Both the position numbers and the translations under genes were made by a program. DNA of 64,000 nucleotides, from contig NZ_CP029556.1 in assembly GCF_003293695.1 (NCBI RefSeq), positions 940,001 through 1,004,000 on the forward strand. Direction: 5' to 3'. The stretch is from Lysobacter oculi. GTDB taxonomy: Bacteria; Pseudomonadota; Gammaproteobacteria; Xanthomonadales; Xanthomonadaceae. Positions within the stretch are counted from its first letter, which is position 1, and every line of letters begins with the position of its first letter. This document shows positions 48,540 to 54,994 of this stretch, one piece after another. Below the pieces are notes generated by a model. That model worked only from the letters and a program-made list of their open reading frames with translations, did not search any database and had not been told where the DNA came from.

Positions 48540-48564
48540 GAAAGAGGCCCCGCATTGCGGGGCC
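48540..48564 (-). terminator. Stem-loop terminator after the 48,591 gene
   Basis: GGCCCCGC (48546-48553), ATT and GCGGGGCC (48557-48564) form a perfect 8-bp stem, followed on the minus strand by CTCTTTC. It lies 27 bp past the stop of the downstream-facing gene. Confidence 0.6.
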
Positions 48565-48590: not shown

Positions 48591-49085
48591 TCAGGTGATC
48601 GGCACCGCCTTCGGGCTCGGCAGCGGGGCCTGCGGCCGCTTGCCCTGCCCGTCGAACCGCCGCCCCAGTTCCCGGCGCAGCCCGTTCAGGCCCTCGCCCT
48701 TGCCGGCGATCTTGAGGAAGGCATAGCCCTCCAGCGCGCTCACCATCACATCGCTGCCCAGTGCCAGCTCGGTATCGCGCACGCGCTCCAGCAGCCGGCT
48801 CAGGCGCACCATCCGCACGCCGAAGGCGTCATGCGCGTCCAGGTCCCGGCGCATCTCCACCACATCGAAATCGCGCGGCAGGATGCCTGTGTTCTGGCTC
48901 ATCACGTCCAGCGCCTTGCGGCAGAACGCTTCCGAGCCGTCGCCCATCTTGGGCAGCCGCTTGCGCTCGTCCGGGCTGAGTTTCACGGTGGAAGGCAGCA
49001 ACGCCTGTTCGATCGCCTCCAGCGCGCTGTCCACGGCCGCCCACTGCTGGGCATCGGGGTGCACGGTTGCCAGGTTCTGACTCAT
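48591..49085 (-). CDS. Conserved protein of unknown function (164 aa)
   Basis: This 164-residue soluble, mostly helical protein starts MSQNLATVHPDAQQWAAVDSA. SDERKRLPKMGDGSEAFCRKAL-like wording (KLSPDERKRLPKMGDGSE) and LPRDFDVVEMRRDLDAHDAF are its most conserved-looking parts. I recall similar hypothetical proteins in diverse bacteria (often 150-170 aa) but know of no function. Its 5' side faces the tandem-repeat array, with two hairpins/palindromes between. A Pro/Lys-rich tail ends the protein. Confidence 0.7.
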   Translation of the reverse strand: MSQNLATVHPDAQQWAAVDSALEAIEQALLPSTVKLSPDERKRLPKMGDGSEAFCRKALDVMSQNTGILPRDFDVVEMRRDLDAHDAFGVRMVRLSRLLERVRDTELALGSDVMVSALEGYAFLKIAGKGEGLNGLRRELGRRFDGQGKRPQAPLPSPKAVPIT

Positions 49086-49171
49086 CGTCCTTGTTTCCTT
49101 GTCTTGGGGTTTGGGGGATGCCGGCCCCCTTGGCCGGCACTGGACGCTAAGCGAAGCGCTCCGGCTCGGGT

Positions 49172-49187
49172 ATCGGACTAGTCCGAT
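49172..49187. promoter_or_regulatory. Perfect 16-bp palindrome at the border of the repeat array
   Basis: ATCGGACTAGTCCGAT is a perfect 16-bp palindrome, 87-102 bp upstream of the unknown gene at 49085 and about 20 bp before the tandem repeats begin. It could be an operator, a recombination or resolution site, or an insertion scar. A second stem (GCCGGCC/GGCCGGC, 49120-49138) lies between it and the gene. Confidence 0.5.
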
Positions 49188-49208
49188 GCGCGGACGGACG
49201 GACGGGGT

Positions 49209-49755
49209 GAGTGGAGGTCTGGAGCTCAGTGGGCGGAGCTCTGAGCTCAGTGAACGGAGCTAGGGAGCTCGGTGGACGGAGCTCCGGGCTCAGTGAGCGG
49301 AGCTCTGGAGCTCGGTGGACGGAGCTCCGGGCTCAGTGAGCGGAGCTCTGGAGCTCGGTGGACGGAGCTCTGGGCTCGGTGAGCGGAGCTCTTGAGCTCG
49401 GTTGAGTGAGCTCTGGGCTCAGTGTACGGAGCTCTGAGCTCGGTGGACGGAGCTCTGAGCTCAGTGAGCGGACCTGGGGAGCTCGGTTGACTGAGCTCTG
49501 GGCTCAGTGGGCGGAGCTCCGGGCTCGGTGCGTGGAGGTCTGGAGCTCGGTGGGCGGAGCTTTGGGCTCGGTCGGTGGAGGTGTTGGGCTCGGTCGGTGG
49601 AGGTGTTGGGCTCGGTCGGTGGAGGTGTTGGGCTCGGTGTACGGAGGTCTGGGCTCGGCGAACCTAGGTCTGGACCGAACTGGCGGAGGTGGCGAGCTCG
49701 GTGGGCGGAGGTCCAGGCTGAACCGACCGAGGTGTCGGGCTCGGTGGACGGAGTT
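49209..49755. repeat. Degenerate 21/22-bp tandem repeat array (about 25 units)
   Basis: The unit consensus is about GCTCGGTGGACGGAGCTCTGG. Starts of successive GCTC motifs fall at 49224, 49245, 49267, 49288, 49310, 49331, 49353, 49374, 49396, 49417, 49438, 49459, 49481, 49502, 49523, 49545, 49566, 49588, 49610, 49632 and 49653, so spacing is 21 or 22 bp throughout. A 43-bp double unit is repeated exactly at 49267-49309 and 49310-49352, and a 22-bp unit three times exactly from 49566 to 49631. Most units contain the palindrome GAGCTC. Mixing 21- and 22-bp units breaks any reading frame, so it is not a coding repeat. The remaining 49,756-49,953 shows no gene I can support. Confidence 0.93.
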
Positions 49756-49953
49756 CCTGACCTCCGCCGGTCCGGCCCCGGGCTGCACGCGTTCGGATGT
49801 GGGGTGCGGACGGTGGGGTTGGTACGTCATCTCCATCCCAAGCCCCTGCCCGCAAGCCCCATGCGATACGCGCCACGGCCACGGTGCCCTATCTCCGCCA
49901 ATGAGACCCGTCCATGGCACGCTGCAACCTCACCACCTGGGGGAGGTTTCGTG

Positions 49954-50306
49954 ATGACCATTGAACAGGACGATTTCTGGACGATCGATAGCGACGACGT
50001 CGAGCACTACCATGGCGGACTATCCAGACCAAGGGCCTGGCAGCCCTCATTCAGCTCAACCATACGGACCGCGACGACTGCGAGTTCCGTGGCCCGCTCA
50101 AGGCGGTGCGTCAGTTGGAACACCGTGTGTTCGGACAGCCCGCCTGGCTCGTCACCGTGACTGTATTGCGGGATACGGATGCGGACGATGAAGACGTGGA
50201 CATTGATGTCGTGCTGACCGAGATCGTTCTGGGCAATCACCCGCTGCCGCAGGTCAGCGACGACGTACAGGGCACGGGCTGGGTGCAGGGGTGGATGGCG
50301 GGGTGA
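49954..50306 (+). pseudogene. Small gene disrupted by a frameshift
   Basis: A strong Shine-Dalgarno (GGGAGG, 7 nt before ATG 49954) opens MTIEQDDFWTIDSDDVEHYH, which loses sense near 50020-50030. A second frame then continues from about 50028 as TKGLAALIQLNHTDRDDCEF, through VRQLEHRVFGQPAWLVTVTV and the acidic RDTDADDEDVDIDVVL, to TGA at 50304. Both halves have protein-like composition and abut. Together they would make about 115 residues. A single-base indel (in the genome or in the assembly) best explains this. I recognise no family. Neighbouring are the repeat array and the restriction genes. Confidence 0.55.
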
Positions 50307-50375: not shown

Positions 50376-53024
50376 ATGCCAGGCATATCGATGGAACTTA
50401 CGCAAGAGATTGTTGGGAAGGTCCGTAGTTGGCGTGAGGTGGGATATCCACATTCGGACTTTCCCGCTGTTGCAGAAATCCTTGACTGGCTTTCGGGTCG
50501 CGATGCCGGGCAGCCGCCGTTCCTGCGCATCCCGCAGGTGCGCGCGCTTGAAACCTACTGGTATTTGCGGCTGGTCGAAGGCACACCCGGTATTTTCGAT
50601 CTGTACCAAAGCTTGATTCAAAGCAAGGTAGAGCTGCGCAAGACGCTGGGTTTGAACAGTGAAATCCTTCGCGAATATGCCGAAGAACATGGCTTCGATG
50701 CGTTGATTGAACACATCCGCAACGATGACGCTTTCGTCAAACAGCACAAGCTCGAATCCCTGCGCGAAACACTGACCCTCGACTACCCGAGCTACATCCT
50801 TGCGCTGGCCATGGGTGCCGGCAAGACGATGCTGATCGGCGCAATCATCGCCACCGAGTTCGCCATGGCGCAGGAGTACCCGGACGAAAATTTCGTGCAC
50901 AACGCGCTGGTGTTCGCGCCTGGCAAGACCATCATCGAGTCGCTGCGCGAGCTGGCGACGATGCCCTTCGATGGCATCCTGCCGCCGCGCATGCACAAGC
51001 CGTTCGCCGCCAGCGTCAAGCTTACTTTTACTCGTGACGGCAGCCCGGACATCGACGTGATCCCCGGTTCGCATTACAACATCGTCGTCACCAACACAGA
51101 GAAAATCCGCATCCAGAAGGCGTCCATTCGCAAGGGCGACCTGGGCAGCCTGTTTGCCGGCGCGGGTGATGCTGATGCGCTGAAGCAGGACGTGGCCAAC
51201 CGTCGTCTGCAGCGGCTGGCACAGTTGCCGCATCTGGGCGTGTTCTCCGACGAGGCGCACCACACCTACGGACAATCGATGGATACCGAACTGAAGAAGG
51301 TGCGCAAGACCGTGGACTACCTGGCCAGCGAGACGAACGTCGTCTGCGTGGTCAACACCACCGGCACGCCCTACTACAACAAGCAGCCGCTGCTGGACGT
51401 CGTGTACTGGTACGGCCTGTCGCAGGGTATCGAGGACGGCTACCTCAAGCCTGTGTCCGGCAATATCGAAGCCTACGATTTCGGCGACGACATCAAGCCT
51501 TACGTCACCGAAGTCGTCGGTGATTTCCTCAAGCGGTACGGCGATGTATCGCTGCCCAATGGCGCCAAGGCCAAACTGGCAATTTATTTCCCGCAAACCG
51601 ACGACCTGGAAGCCATGCGCCCGGTAGTGGAAGCCGCGCTCGCCGCCAACGGCCACGCGCCGTCCGAATGCCTGGCCAATCACTCGCACAGCCCGCAAGC
51701 CGACGTGGATGCCTTCAACCGGCTCAACGATCCCGCGTCAACGCACCGCGCCATCCTGCTGGTGAACCGTGGCACCGAGGGCTGGAATTGCCCCAGCCTG
51801 TTTGCCTGCGCGCTGGCCCGCAACCTGCAGTCCTCCAACAATTTCGTGCTGCAGGCGGCCACCCGCTGCCTGCGCCAGGTGCCCGGCAACTCGCACAAGG
51901 CCAAGATCTACCTGTCTCAGGACAATTACGCAGTGCTGGATCGCCAGCTGCAGGAGACCTACGGCGAATCGCTGGCCGACCTCAAACAAGAACGCGAGAA
52001 CCTTCACCACGCAAAGATCGTGCTGCTCAAGGAGAACATTCCGCCGCTGGTGCTCAAGCGGCAGGTTGTCCGCGTGCGCCGGGTGGAGGCGAAGATTCCG
52101 GAAATACTTGAACTACAGCGCCCGGATGACAACGATCCCGCGCTGACCGTGCAGCGTTACGAACTGGCTGCGCAGGCCAGCAGCACAAAGGTCATGCGCG
52201 AACTGGGCGACGCGTTGCCAGTTGAAGCCGCCATCGAAGTGGCCGACACCCGCACCGTCGCCGCAGACCTCGGCGCACGCTATCGCTTGCCGTTGTTTGC
52301 GGTACTGGACGCGCTATGTGGCGCCTATGGTGACGATGACGTGCCGTTGCGCCACCTGGATGCCTTGGCAAGCCAGCTGGAAGACCAGGTGCGCCATTAC
52401 GAAACCGAATCCGAGGAAATCGAAGTCGCGCTGGCGCTGGTGCGGCCCGAAGGCTTCAACGAGGAACAGGATGCAGACGGCAAGCCCATCCGCACCGCCG
52501 AAATCACTTACCGCAAGGATCGCGAGAAGTTGCTCTGGAACGTGAAGGACGCACGCGCCGATTACGGCGGCGGTTTTGGCTTCCACTACAGCCCATACAA
52601 CTTCGACTCGCTGCCGGAGAAGGACTTTCTTGCGAAAGTGCTCGCCACGCTGCAATTGGATGCCGCAGACATCGAAGACGTGTACTTCACCGGCGCGCTG
52701 GGCCGCGACAAGACCGACTTCGTGGTCGAGTACAAGGGCGTGGACGGGCGCTGGCATCCGTATTCGCCGGACTTCCTGATCCGCCAGAAGCCGAAGGACG
52801 GCGGGATCCCAGGCAGCGGCAGGCTGCTGATCGTGGAGATCAAGCAGGAACGCCTGCGCAAGGACGAGACCGATGGCGAGAGTGGCCGCAAGGCGATGGC
52901 CGTGCACGAATGGGCCAGGCTCAACCCCGACCGCATCGACTACGAAATTCTTTTCACCGACACCGATACCGTGGCGAACAATGACTTCGCCCGGGTGCGT
53001 ACATTCCTGGGGGGCAAGTCATGA
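50376..53024 (+). CDS. res: Type III restriction enzyme Res subunit (SF2 helicase plus nuclease)
   Basis: This 882-residue protein has Walker A at ALAMGAGKTMLIG (about 143-155) and the DEAD-box-type motif II as FSDEAHHTYG. Motif III is NTTGTPYY, and the C-terminal helicase half includes VNRGTEGWNC and QAATRCLRQVPG (motif VI region). A C-terminal PD-(D/E)xK nuclease follows with YSPDFLIRQ and LLIVEIKQE. This is the layout of Type III Res, which translocates or slides and cuts away from the recognition site in complex with Mod. It precedes mod with an ATGA overlap; the usual order is mod-res. A start at 50391 is also possible. Confidence 0.88.
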   Translation: MPGISMELTQEIVGKVRSWREVGYPHSDFPAVAEILDWLSGRDAGQPPFLRIPQVRALETYWYLRLVEGTPGIFDLYQSLIQSKVELRKTLGLNSEILREYAEEHGFDALIEHIRNDDAFVKQHKLESLRETLTLDYPSYILALAMGAGKTMLIGAIIATEFAMAQEYPDENFVHNALVFAPGKTIIESLRELATMPFDGILPPRMHKPFAASVKLTFTRDGSPDIDVIPGSHYNIVVTNTEKIRIQKASIRKGDLGSLFAGAGDADALKQDVANRRLQRLAQLPHLGVFSDEAHHTYGQSMDTELKKVRKTVDYLASETNVVCVVNTTGTPYYNKQPLLDVVYWYGLSQGIEDGYLKPVSGNIEAYDFGDDIKPYVTEVVGDFLKRYGDVSLPNGAKAKLAIYFPQTDDLEAMRPVVEAALAANGHAPSECLANHSHSPQADVDAFNRLNDPASTHRAILLVNRGTEGWNCPSLFACALARNLQSSNNFVLQAATRCLRQVPGNSHKAKIYLSQDNYAVLDRQLQETYGESLADLKQERENLHHAKIVLLKENIPPLVLKRQVVRVRRVEAKIPEILELQRPDDNDPALTVQRYELAAQASSTKVMRELGDALPVEAAIEVADTRTVAADLGARYRLPLFAVLDALCGAYGDDDVPLRHLDALASQLEDQVRHYETESEEIEVALALVRPEGFNEEQDADGKPIRTAEITYRKDREKLLWNVKDARADYGGGFGFHYSPYNFDSLPEKDFLAKVLATLQLDAADIEDVYFTGALGRDKTDFVVEYKGVDGRWHPYSPDFLIRQKPKDGGIPGSGRLLIVEIKQERLRKDETDGESGRKAMAVHEWARLNPDRIDYEILFTDTDTVANNDFARVRTFLGGKS

Positions 53025-54994
53025 GCGCGCGCAAGGCCGCAAAGAAAGCATCAAAAGCACTGGTTCAGTCGGCTGCGAAGAAGGTTGCGAAGAAGGCGAC
53101 CCGGAAGGCGGCGGCCAAGGCCGCTCCTGCGGCCGGTGCCGACGTGCTGACCCGCGTGCGTGGCGCGCAGCAGACCGTGACCATCGGCAAGGCGGGTGGC
53201 CGACCGATGTTGAGTTGGGTGGGCAAGCGCGCCCCGGCGAGCGTGCAGGCGTTCCCGGCGCAGCTGGTCGAGACCTACGGCGAGCAAGCGGCGAGCGGTG
53301 TGCCGTGGAAACGCTGGCCCGACGACCTGCGCCGCGGTGGCCTGCTGTACCACGGCGACAACAAGGAGGTGCTGGCGCGCCTGCTGGCCAACGGCTTCCG
53401 CGGCCAGGTCAAGCTGATCTACATCGACCCGCCGTTCGACTCCGGCGCCGACTACGTGCGCAAGGTCGAGCTGCGCGGCCCCAAGGGCAAGGTGAAGCTG
53501 GACGGCGAAGGCTACACGCTTGGCGAGCAGATCCAGTACACCGATATCTGGGCCAACGACAACTACCTGCAGTTCATGTATGAGCGGTTGTTGTTGCTCA
53601 AAGAGCTGCTGGCAGATGGTGGCGCCATCTTCTTGCATTGTGACGCATCTAAGGGAGCGTTTCTTAGGTTGCTTATGGATGAAGTATTTGGCGCCGATCG
53701 TTTCGTGAATGAAATCGTTTGGAGCTACCGGCGCTGGCCTTCCGATGTCTCTGCGTTCCAGTCGATGCATGACACGATTTACTATTACGTGCTCAAGGGC
53801 AAAGACAAGCACACGTTCCACAAACAGTACGAGGATGCTTCCGAAAGTTACCTGAAGCGTTTTGGTGGCAAGACGCAAATACTCGATGCCGAAAGCGGAA
53901 CTCGAAAAATCACAAGCGATGAAGAGACAAAAGGCATGCCTCTTCGCGACGTATGGGATCTATCGATACTCGCAGGCGTGAAGGCAGAGCGCGTCGGCTA
54001 CCCCACACAGAAGCCAGAAGAGCTGGTTGCGCGGATAATCGAAGTCTGTTCGAACCCCGGCGACCTCGTGCTCGACTGCTTTATCGGTTCCGGCACCACC
54101 GCTGCCGTTGCTCAGAAGCTTGGCCGCCGCTGGATCGGCTGCGACATCAACAAGGGCGCCATCCAGACCACGGCCAAACGGCTGCAGCTGGTCATGGCGG
54201 ACCAGTCCGGTGAAAACGGCAAGCCGGCTCAAGGCAAGCTGCTGGGCGAGGGCGATGCACCCTTGCCGGCACAGCTCGGCTTCACCCACTGGCGCGTCAA
54301 CGACTACGACCTGGCCATCCAGCACAACGAGGCGGTGAACCTGGCCTGCGAGTACCTGGGCGTGGAGCGGTTGCGCAGCGATGCCTACTTCGACGGCCTG
54401 CTGGGCAAGCGTCTGGTCAAGATCATCCCCTTCGGCCATCCGCTGTCACCGATGGACCTGGAGGCGATACGGAACGAGTTGGAGGCCCGCCCCGACGAGG
54501 ACCGTGCCATCACCGTGGTCTGCCTGGGCAAGGAGCTGGCCAGCGACACCTGGCTCACAGAGTGGAATCGCCTGCGCAAGAAGAAGACCGACCCGCATCA
54601 CATCGAGGTTATCGAACTTCGCAACGACCCGAAGTACGGCGGTTTCATCCAGCATGAGCGGGCGCAGGTCCGCATTGATGTGAAGCGCAAGGGCGGCAAG
54701 CTGTACGTCGAGATCAAGGATTTCGTCTCCCCCTGCATCCTGCAACGCCTGGCACAACAGTCAGGCGTGGTGCAGCCCAAGGTCGCCGACTGGCGCGCGA
54801 TGGTGGACAGCGTAATGATCGACACGGCTTACGACGGAACCGTCTTCAACGTGGTCCACGCCGACGTGCCCGCCCGAAAGACCGATTTCGTCGCCGGCAG
54901 TTACGAGTTGGATGCCCAGGACGGCGAAACGACGGTCGCGGTGAAGATCACTGACATGTTGGGGGAAGAAGTGTTGGTAACGGCGGAAGCATAA
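53021..54994 (+). CDS. mod: Type III-like DNA methyltransferase (Mod), beta class, with lysine-rich N-terminus
   Basis: This 657-residue adenine (N6) or cytosine (N4) methyltransferase has motif IV DPPF at 136-139 (YIDPPFDSGADY). AdoMet motif I comes later, at about 352-360 (DCFIGSGTT), which is beta-class order. The region between (about 190-347) should hold target recognition. The first 40 residues are a Lys/Ala-rich, histone H1-like tail (KKASKALVQSAAKK, KKATRKAAAKAAPAA) not typical of Mod proteins. The C-terminal 250 residues are the Res-interaction type region. DNA at 53,641-53,760 is about 51% G+C by hand count, against about 67% at 53,401-53,460, suggesting a mosaic gene. It overlaps res by 4 bp. 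Confidence 0.88.
   Translation: MSARKAAKKASKALVQSAAKKVAKKATRKAAAKAAPAAGADVLTRVRGAQQTVTIGKAGGRPMLSWVGKRAPASVQAFPAQLVETYGEQAASGVPWKRWPDDLRRGGLLYHGDNKEVLARLLANGFRGQVKLIYIDPPFDSGADYVRKVELRGPKGKVKLDGEGYTLGEQIQYTDIWANDNYLQFMYERLLLLKELLADGGAIFLHCDASKGAFLRLLMDEVFGADRFVNEIVWSYRRWPSDVSAFQSMHDTIYYYVLKGKDKHTFHKQYEDASESYLKRFGGKTQILDAESGTRKITSDEETKGMPLRDVWDLSILAGVKAERVGYPTQKPEELVARIIEVCSNPGDLVLDCFIGSGTTAAVAQKLGRRWIGCDINKGAIQTTAKRLQLVMADQSGENGKPAQGKLLGEGDAPLPAQLGFTHWRVNDYDLAIQHNEAVNLACEYLGVERLRSDAYFDGLLGKRLVKIIPFGHPLSPMDLEAIRNELEARPDEDRAITVVCLGKELASDTWLTEWNRLRKKKTDPHHIEVIELRNDPKYGGFIQHERAQVRIDVKRKGGKLYVEIKDFVSPCILQRLAQQSGVVQPKVADWRAMVDSVMIDTAYDGTVFNVVHADVPARKTDFVAGSYELDAQDGETTVAVKITDMLGEEVLVTAEA

Follow-up and report, generated by a model that had tools for sequence, protein, structure and literature searches.

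Described Systems with Repeat Arrays

Plasmid and phage centromeres or iterons are arrays that act in cis and are bound by their own protein. In type III toxin-antitoxin systems, the repeats are RNA antitoxins of 34–48 nt. As these systems are presented in PMC5086642, the repeat RNA neutralizes the toxin; ToxIN, AbiQ, and CptIN are examples. RAYTs, described in PMC3116915 as Y1 transposases, are proposed to move or amplify REPINs. The TAACTGA repeat of Beggiatoaceae is, in the description given in PMC4679880, one fixed heptamer with a proposed role immediately upstream of start codons.

The window, by which is meant the whole stretch of 64,000 nucleotides of Lysobacter oculi DNA that was analyzed, contains an array of palindromic units beside a gene of an uncharacterized family. 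The locus lacks a defining feature of RAYT-REPIN systems and one of type III toxin-antitoxin systems. As in RAYT-REPIN systems in the account of PMC3116915, a chromosomal protein gene adjoins a cluster of palindromic repeats with a flavor specific to that gene, and related repeats are dispersed in the genome. Gene-side and dispersed repeats of the same flavor can be found in the window genome (G000; 78% identity over 192 bp between the home array and a second one) and in G200, where the arms are similar. REPINs, however, are inverted pairs of REPs in that account, whereas here 8–25 units follow one another at a fixed period of 21/22 bp.

With type III toxin-antitoxin, as outlined in PMC5086642, the locus shares a protein gene of similar size and tandem repeats of locus-specific sequence. 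In loci of the 5′ type, the array also comes before the gene with a hairpin between them; the type III order has a Rho-independent terminator there, and the hairpin here shows no T-run by eye. Unlike in type III toxin-antitoxin, many arrays here lie 3′ of the gene (36 downstream and 21 upstream, of 57).

Like centromeres and iterons, the locus has helically phased sites arrayed in cis, with fast-diverging specificity, beside the gene of the presumed binder, but the units examined here lie on chromosomes and are in many cases dispersed. In a scan of ten reading frames of the window, no ParA/ParM-like or Rep gene and no other partner NTPase was noticed next to the array. The TAACTGA repeats, as described in PMC4679880, are likewise intergenic tandem repeats that occur across distant phyla. 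Unlike in that description, the sequence varies here, and what stays constant is a period of 21 bp together with the partner gene.

The Array in the Window

The first-pass annotation had described about 25 units at start spacings of 21 or 22 bp, located between divergent genes, and both statements hold (Table 1). The start spacings found by motif chaining are 21 or 22 bp, plus one double step of 43. Tandem Repeats Finder supports the array with overlapping rows over 49206–49762, at periods of 21, 22, 43, and 64. The unit consists of a 16-bp imperfect palindrome, GCTCrG-N4-CnGAGC, and a linker of 5–6 bp. The final units are degenerate.

Table 1. Features of the window locus and the second array of the same genome (positions in the window unless a contig is named)
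Feature	Position	Strand	Description
Repeat array	49224–49776	none	25 chained units, spacing 21/22 bp (motif chaining)
Partner gene	48591–49085	minus	164-aa protein, uncharacterized family; start codon 139 bp from array
Divergent neighboring gene	50376–53024	plus	
Hairpin GCCGGCC-CCCTT-GGCCGGC	49120–49138	minus	just before partner gene
Perfect 16-bp palindrome ATCGGACTAGTCCGAT	49172–49187	none	between array and gene
Terminator-like hairpin GGCCCCGC-AAT-GCGGGGCC	48541–48564	minus	after gene, short weak TCTTT tail (by eye)
Second, solo array	G000:C1:1316545–1316798 (L003 5546–5799)		between rnhB and dnaE

The periodicity of the array is far above chance expectation. Among lags 21, 22, and 43, the best match is 0.667, at lag 43, and 1000 dinucleotide shuffles average 0.328 and do not exceed 0.379. 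Matches at lags 7 and 14 are also raised (0.41 and 0.44, vs 0.25–0.27 at lags 20 and 23). Both strands fold better as RNA than shuffles do, with z about −8; the same is expected of any palindromic repeat.

An exact 43-bp higher-order copy had been reported previously. The repetition is exact, but the length named was short: the longest exact repeat is 64 bp, with copies at 49264 and 49307. A 22-bp unit does occur in three exact copies, as had been stated, at 49565, 49587, and 49609. These copies indicate recent expansion, which bears out the earlier description of the array as recently active. Because the mixed 21/22 spacing disrupts every reading frame, as had also been pointed out, a coding repeat is excluded. 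Three features go beyond the first-pass annotation: the units are palindromic, the genome has a second array, and the minus-strand neighbor belongs to an array-associated family.

The Partner Gene and Its Protein Family

The partner gene was not found in any of the 16 congeners searched. A search with its protein gave 446 relatives, and the organisms named among the 120 matches listed are Lysobacter, Luteimonas, and Agrilutibacter. The gene is present in 93 of 297 Xanthomonadaceae genomes, and a profile search extends the protein family to at least 1713 members. Members are hypothetical proteins by name, bar a few automatic labels, among the matches listed. The family is multicopy in some genomes (12 matches in G139, 8 in G717, and 7 in G718), and several of the copies in G717 and G718 adjoin arrays of differing sequence.

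Pfam, NCBIfam, and PHROGs gave no significant match for the family members scanned. A sequence search of the PDB gave none for the window protein, with 18 relatives included, and transposase families gave none for the window protein or 18 + 10 relatives. The AlphaFold2 model of the window protein is all-helical, with one 52-residue helix (pLDDT 90.9), and that of a Spirochaetaceae relative has the same helix order (pLDDT 91.6). Foldseek matched neither model to a solved structure at E ≤ 0.001, and no recognized DNA-binding fold is present in the predicted model of the partner protein.

Several known identities were considered and rejected. A Y1 (HuH) tyrosine transposase does not agree with the confident all-helical model, the window protein having no Pfam match and its relatives no transposase match. 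The ToxN endoribonuclease family was set aside on the missing Pfam and NCBIfam matches and on the PADLOC matches for the family, which include no toxin model. The window protein has a weak partial match to JetB/DUF4194 (17 bits, E 8.8e-4); a Wadjet JetB or MukE-like identity was rejected, each JetB model matching only one of the 26 members scanned.

Arrays Elsewhere in the Genome and in the Xanthomonadaceae

The window genome is a single contig of 2.59 Mb, and its second array stands alone. By eye, no array is present in the 520 bases before dnaE in 14 congeners, these being the ones, of 16 searched, in which the dnaE start was located. In one of them, L171, other sequence occupies the region.

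GCTC-type arrays are patchy in the Xanthomonadaceae and mostly intergenic, and they also occur in a few genomes of other phyla. A degenerate array pattern matched 11 of the 297 Xanthomonadaceae genomes. A two-unit pattern, with two mismatches allowed, matched 36 of the 297, in 18 of 54 genera, and its backward control matched 20. The contrast is given by match numbers per genome rather than by genome counts: five or more matches are found in 14 genomes with the two-unit pattern vs 2 with the control, and 31 of the 36 genomes have no control match at all.

The pattern is present in records named as L. soli, L. changpingensis, Lysobacter sp. MMG2, Lysobacter sp. Root494, and Stenotrophomonas pictorum. 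Single hits such as that in G313 may be due to chance, and the matches in G083 and G132 are heptamer microsatellites. Pure (GAGCTCC)n microsatellites, superficially array-like, can be found in Streptomyces, [Pseudomonas] boreopolis, and others (L013, L039, L063, L083).

Judged by a crude gene caller, 35 of 41 arrays are clear of called genes, and the flanking genes have any orientation. Information per column over 36 arrays is 1.2–1.7 bits in the arms, 0.7–0.9 in the center, and 0.6–0.8 in the linker; the arm values are partly inflated, since the arms served to detect the arrays, although every array enters the count with all of its chained units. Over 34 arrays, 385 spacings are 21 bp, 48 are 22, and 2 are 20, counted with a chaining score that mildly favors 21 and 22. 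A variable-gap search in 25 genomes gave a 4-bp center and a 5-bp linker as the recurrent geometry, judged by eye among the matches listed.

An example of gain and loss can be found upstream of prfC. Among 15 genomes, two have a GCTC array at this locus and one a diverged array (L177, L179, L183), and the remaining twelve have none by eye in 640 bp. Arrays therefore come and go, and the prfC loci of the Lysobacter group provide a natural gain/loss series. Slippage clearly shapes the arrays, as seen in the exact 64-bp and 22-bp copies and in the presence or absence at prfC.

Co-Occurrence of Gene and Array

The gene family and palindromic arrays of period 21/22 co-occur in several phyla. Within the Xanthomonadaceae, the gene is present in 26 of the 36 array-pattern genomes vs 67 of 261 others (p = 8e-8), and in 17 of the 23 genomes with two or more pattern matches vs 76 of 274 (p = 1.5e-5), both p-values ignoring kinship. 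Gene and array are no more than about 300 bp apart in G113, G139, G200, G230, G075, G299, G207, G187, G117, and G247 (twice). Most arrays stand elsewhere in some of these genomes; G200 has at least four array loci that are not beside its sole gene copy. G254 and G265, of the close Lysobacter group, have many arrays, and the profile search detects no gene in them.

The association can also be approached from the protein side. One locus was taken from each of 29 further genomes, picked by protein match alone, and periods of 12–35 were scanned in 700 bp on either side, with a threshold of z ≥ 4. At 22 of these loci the best flank lag is 21 or 22 at or above the threshold, 18 times upstream and 4 times downstream; one of the downstream signals, L196, may be periodic coding sequence. 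The other seven have no clear array in the 700-bp flanks. Only 2 of 30 control loci (16 rnhB, 14 prfC) have a period of 21/22, and both are previously recognized prfC arrays.

Beyond the Xanthomonadaceae, a genome-wide scan for the GCTC pattern gave 90 stretches, many of them heptamer microsatellites or short repeats. Two Verrucomicrobia stretches that were retrieved solely through the DNA pattern have the gene 53 and 170 bp from the array. Among the genomes of 23 hand-picked loci, 12 encode the protein family: three Verrucomicrobia, Aquabacterium, a Burkholderiales and a Proteobacteria MAG, Zoogloea, Azoarcus, a Spirochaetaceae MAG, the cyanobacterium Komarekiella, Hydrocarboniphaga, and S. 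pictorum, a member of the window organism's own family.

When these genomes are sorted by hand, 11 of the 12 with long non-heptamer arrays (8 or more units) encode the protein. The exception is the deltaproteobacterial MAG L060, which has arrays and no detectable gene. The protein is absent from both genomes with long heptamer arrays (L082, L086) and from eight short-hit genomes; Hydrocarboniphaga has it, though found by one short hit. For comparison, a coarser search found the protein encoded in 2 of 398 Pseudomonadota genomes.

In the 12 hand-picked genomes that encode the protein, all selected for having the array pattern somewhere, 21 of 30 protein loci have a period-21/22 array, always on the downstream side; the 21 include both Verrucomicrobia loci first obtained by DNA. 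At the loci of the Spirochaetaceae MAG and of Hydrocarboniphaga the signal stays below threshold, and the sequence at the S. pictorum locus stops too early for the flank scan. Gene and array are paired in Verrucomicrobia, Burkholderiales, Zoogloea, Azoarcus, and one cyanobacterium.

Divergence and Symmetry of the Arrays

The 57 arrays whose placement was counted above are those with lag-21/22 z ≥ 4 among 69 pooled loci, nine of which were found through DNA. Their arm sequences vary by locus, with GCTCGG..CCGAGC and CCTTGCG..CGCAAGG as examples. The array sequence is ACTTGAACCGGTTCAAGT in Zoogloea, CCTTGCGCGCAAGG at L218, GGCTTGCGCGCAAGCC at L206 and L208–L210, and GAGGCTCGGAGCCTC at L215, and the Azoarcus consensus is CTGGCTTCGGGCCAG. 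Arrays of differing sequence have a common plan, a palindrome and a linker that total 21 bp.

Dyad symmetry is significant at p < 0.05 by column permutation in 32 of 52 period-21 arrays. The 20 arrays without a significant dyad under a rigid fold at 21 include that of the window, because its mixed spacing blurs such a fold. Compensatory pairing within units was looked for, and there is none (z = −2.8).

The 6-mer similarity between arrays rises from 0.10 at 20–30% protein identity to 0.30 at 60–70%; that of the opposite flank is flat, at 0.12–0.14, up to 70% protein identity. Array sequence thus co-diverges with the protein, while the spacing and, in most tested arrays, the dyad symmetry persist.

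Hairpins and Sites around the Gene

In 5′-type loci, the window included, the array is followed by a short region, often with a GGCCGG-type hairpin, and then by the start codon. A hairpin of this type stands at the same position in many 5′-type relatives and has no T-run, both judged by eye. A consensus scan recognized no promoter in this region. The perfect palindrome ATCGGACTAGTCCGAT between the array and the gene resembles an operator by appearance only.

A terminator-like hairpin follows the stop codon at 16 of 36 loci with 3′ arrays (0.4 expected) and at 12 of 20 loci with 5′ arrays (0.1 expected). The order of hairpin and array could be resolved in 13 of the 16 3′-array loci, and in those 13 the best array stretch begins no earlier than the end of the hairpin. 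The consensus terminator scan does not call the window hairpin that follows the gene.

A Candidate Protein-DNA Unit and Its Alternatives

The array and the adjacent gene for an all-helical protein of about 160 aa may be two halves of one unit. The protein, probably as a dimer, would recognize the palindrome as double-stranded DNA and load cooperatively along one face of the helix. Such loading would yield a compact nucleoprotein body at the protein's own locus. Solo arrays elsewhere, for instance that between rnhB and dnaE, would represent further copies of this site, to which the protein binds in trans. Autoregulation, local chromosome organization, or selfish spread of the arrays are possible gains.

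Recognition as DNA is favored by array placement, by the two-turn spacing and dyad symmetry, and by the absence of compensatory change inside units. Judged from sequence, it is somewhat probable that the protein binds its own phased palindromes in this form and that gene and array are a candidate two-part unit. Against this reading speak the arrays of G254, G265, and L060, which have no detectable gene, the array loci of G200 away from its gene copy, the seven protein-chosen loci with no clear array, the 20 arrays with no significant dyad, and a model in which no DNA-binding fold is recognized. A multi-site protein-binding platform, one of three functions suggested in the first-pass annotation, fits best because two-turn spacing and dyad symmetry recur in unrelated arrays together with one protein family; the binding itself is a prediction. 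Another suggestion, a slippage-prone switch, is right in that slippage shapes the arrays, but a switch leaves the partner gene unexplained.

The remaining suggestion, a structured RNA, would make the array the template for a chain of 21-nt hairpins bound by the protein, much as in type III toxin-antitoxin. The palindromes could fold, as the window strands do relative to shuffles, complementary arms are kept in arrays of unrelated sequence, and the 5′-type order of array, hairpin, and gene resembles the order toxI, terminator, toxN in the type III systems as outlined in the source cited above. Such an RNA partner is nevertheless unlikely. It is weakened by the lack of compensatory change inside units and by the arrays 3′ of the gene, with a terminator-like hairpin after the stop codon in 16 of 36 cases. 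In addition, solo arrays occupy gaps of any gene orientation, and linkers of 5 or 6 bp preserve whole helical turns, which an RNA would not need.

Alternatively, the protein may move or amplify the arrays, as is proposed for RAYTs and REPINs, with DNA binding serving dispersal. A single gene that has a home array and, elsewhere in its genome, similar arrays standing alone (G000, G200), the rnhB-dnaE array not seen in 14 congeners, and the array upstream of prfC in 3 of 15 genomes are all consistent with mobility. However, no transposase family matches, and neither a target-site duplication nor defined ends have been established. The plasmid collection has no match for two family members and the phage collection none for one, and mobility of this kind is considered improbable. 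The least probable account, a very doubtful one, is a neutral satellite grown from heptamer microsatellites, with the gene as a bystander. Three GCTCSGA heptads do fit all conserved positions of the GCTC-type unit, the raised lags 7 and 14 agree with such an origin, and pure (GAGCTCC)n runs are present in other genomes. Yet a link to one protein family in several phyla is not expected of a neutral satellite, and the CCTTGCGCGCAAGG and ACTTGAACCGGTTCAAGT arrays have the same period without the heptad. The long-heptamer-array genomes L082 and L086 also lack the protein, and the arms hold 1.2–1.7 bits per column vs 0.6–0.9 in center and linker.

The loci may belong to an undescribed class of bacterial protein-DNA unit, for which the chances appear about even. 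Its members would be small helical proteins, each with its own helically phased palindrome array, with fast-drifting specificity in both partners and fixed two-turn geometry. By coating its array, the protein would form a nucleoprotein body specific to the locus, while solo arrays of related sequence would spread along the chromosome as binding platforms or selfish copies.

The libraries tested offer no annotation for this family of at least 1713 proteins, and a repeat array that is conserved in geometry and not in sequence adjoins many of the genes. Matched pairs of protein and DNA of this kind form a natural series for studying the co-evolution of specificity, and intergenic satellites that appear meaningless become testable candidate binding platforms. 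Should it be true that the protein binds or spreads the solo arrays, it would represent a dispersal or chromosome-organizing system without a recognizable transposase or partition ATPase.

Neighboring Restriction Genes

No link was found between the window array and the restriction-modification genes on its other side. These genes, at 50376–54994, encode a ResIII-type helicase and an N6/N4 methylase and form a type III-like restriction-modification pair. The helicase gene has a weak match to the BPTD_3080 restriction family. Before them, at 49955–50306, lies start-like and coding-like sequence with stops in the frame tried, possibly a gene remnant.
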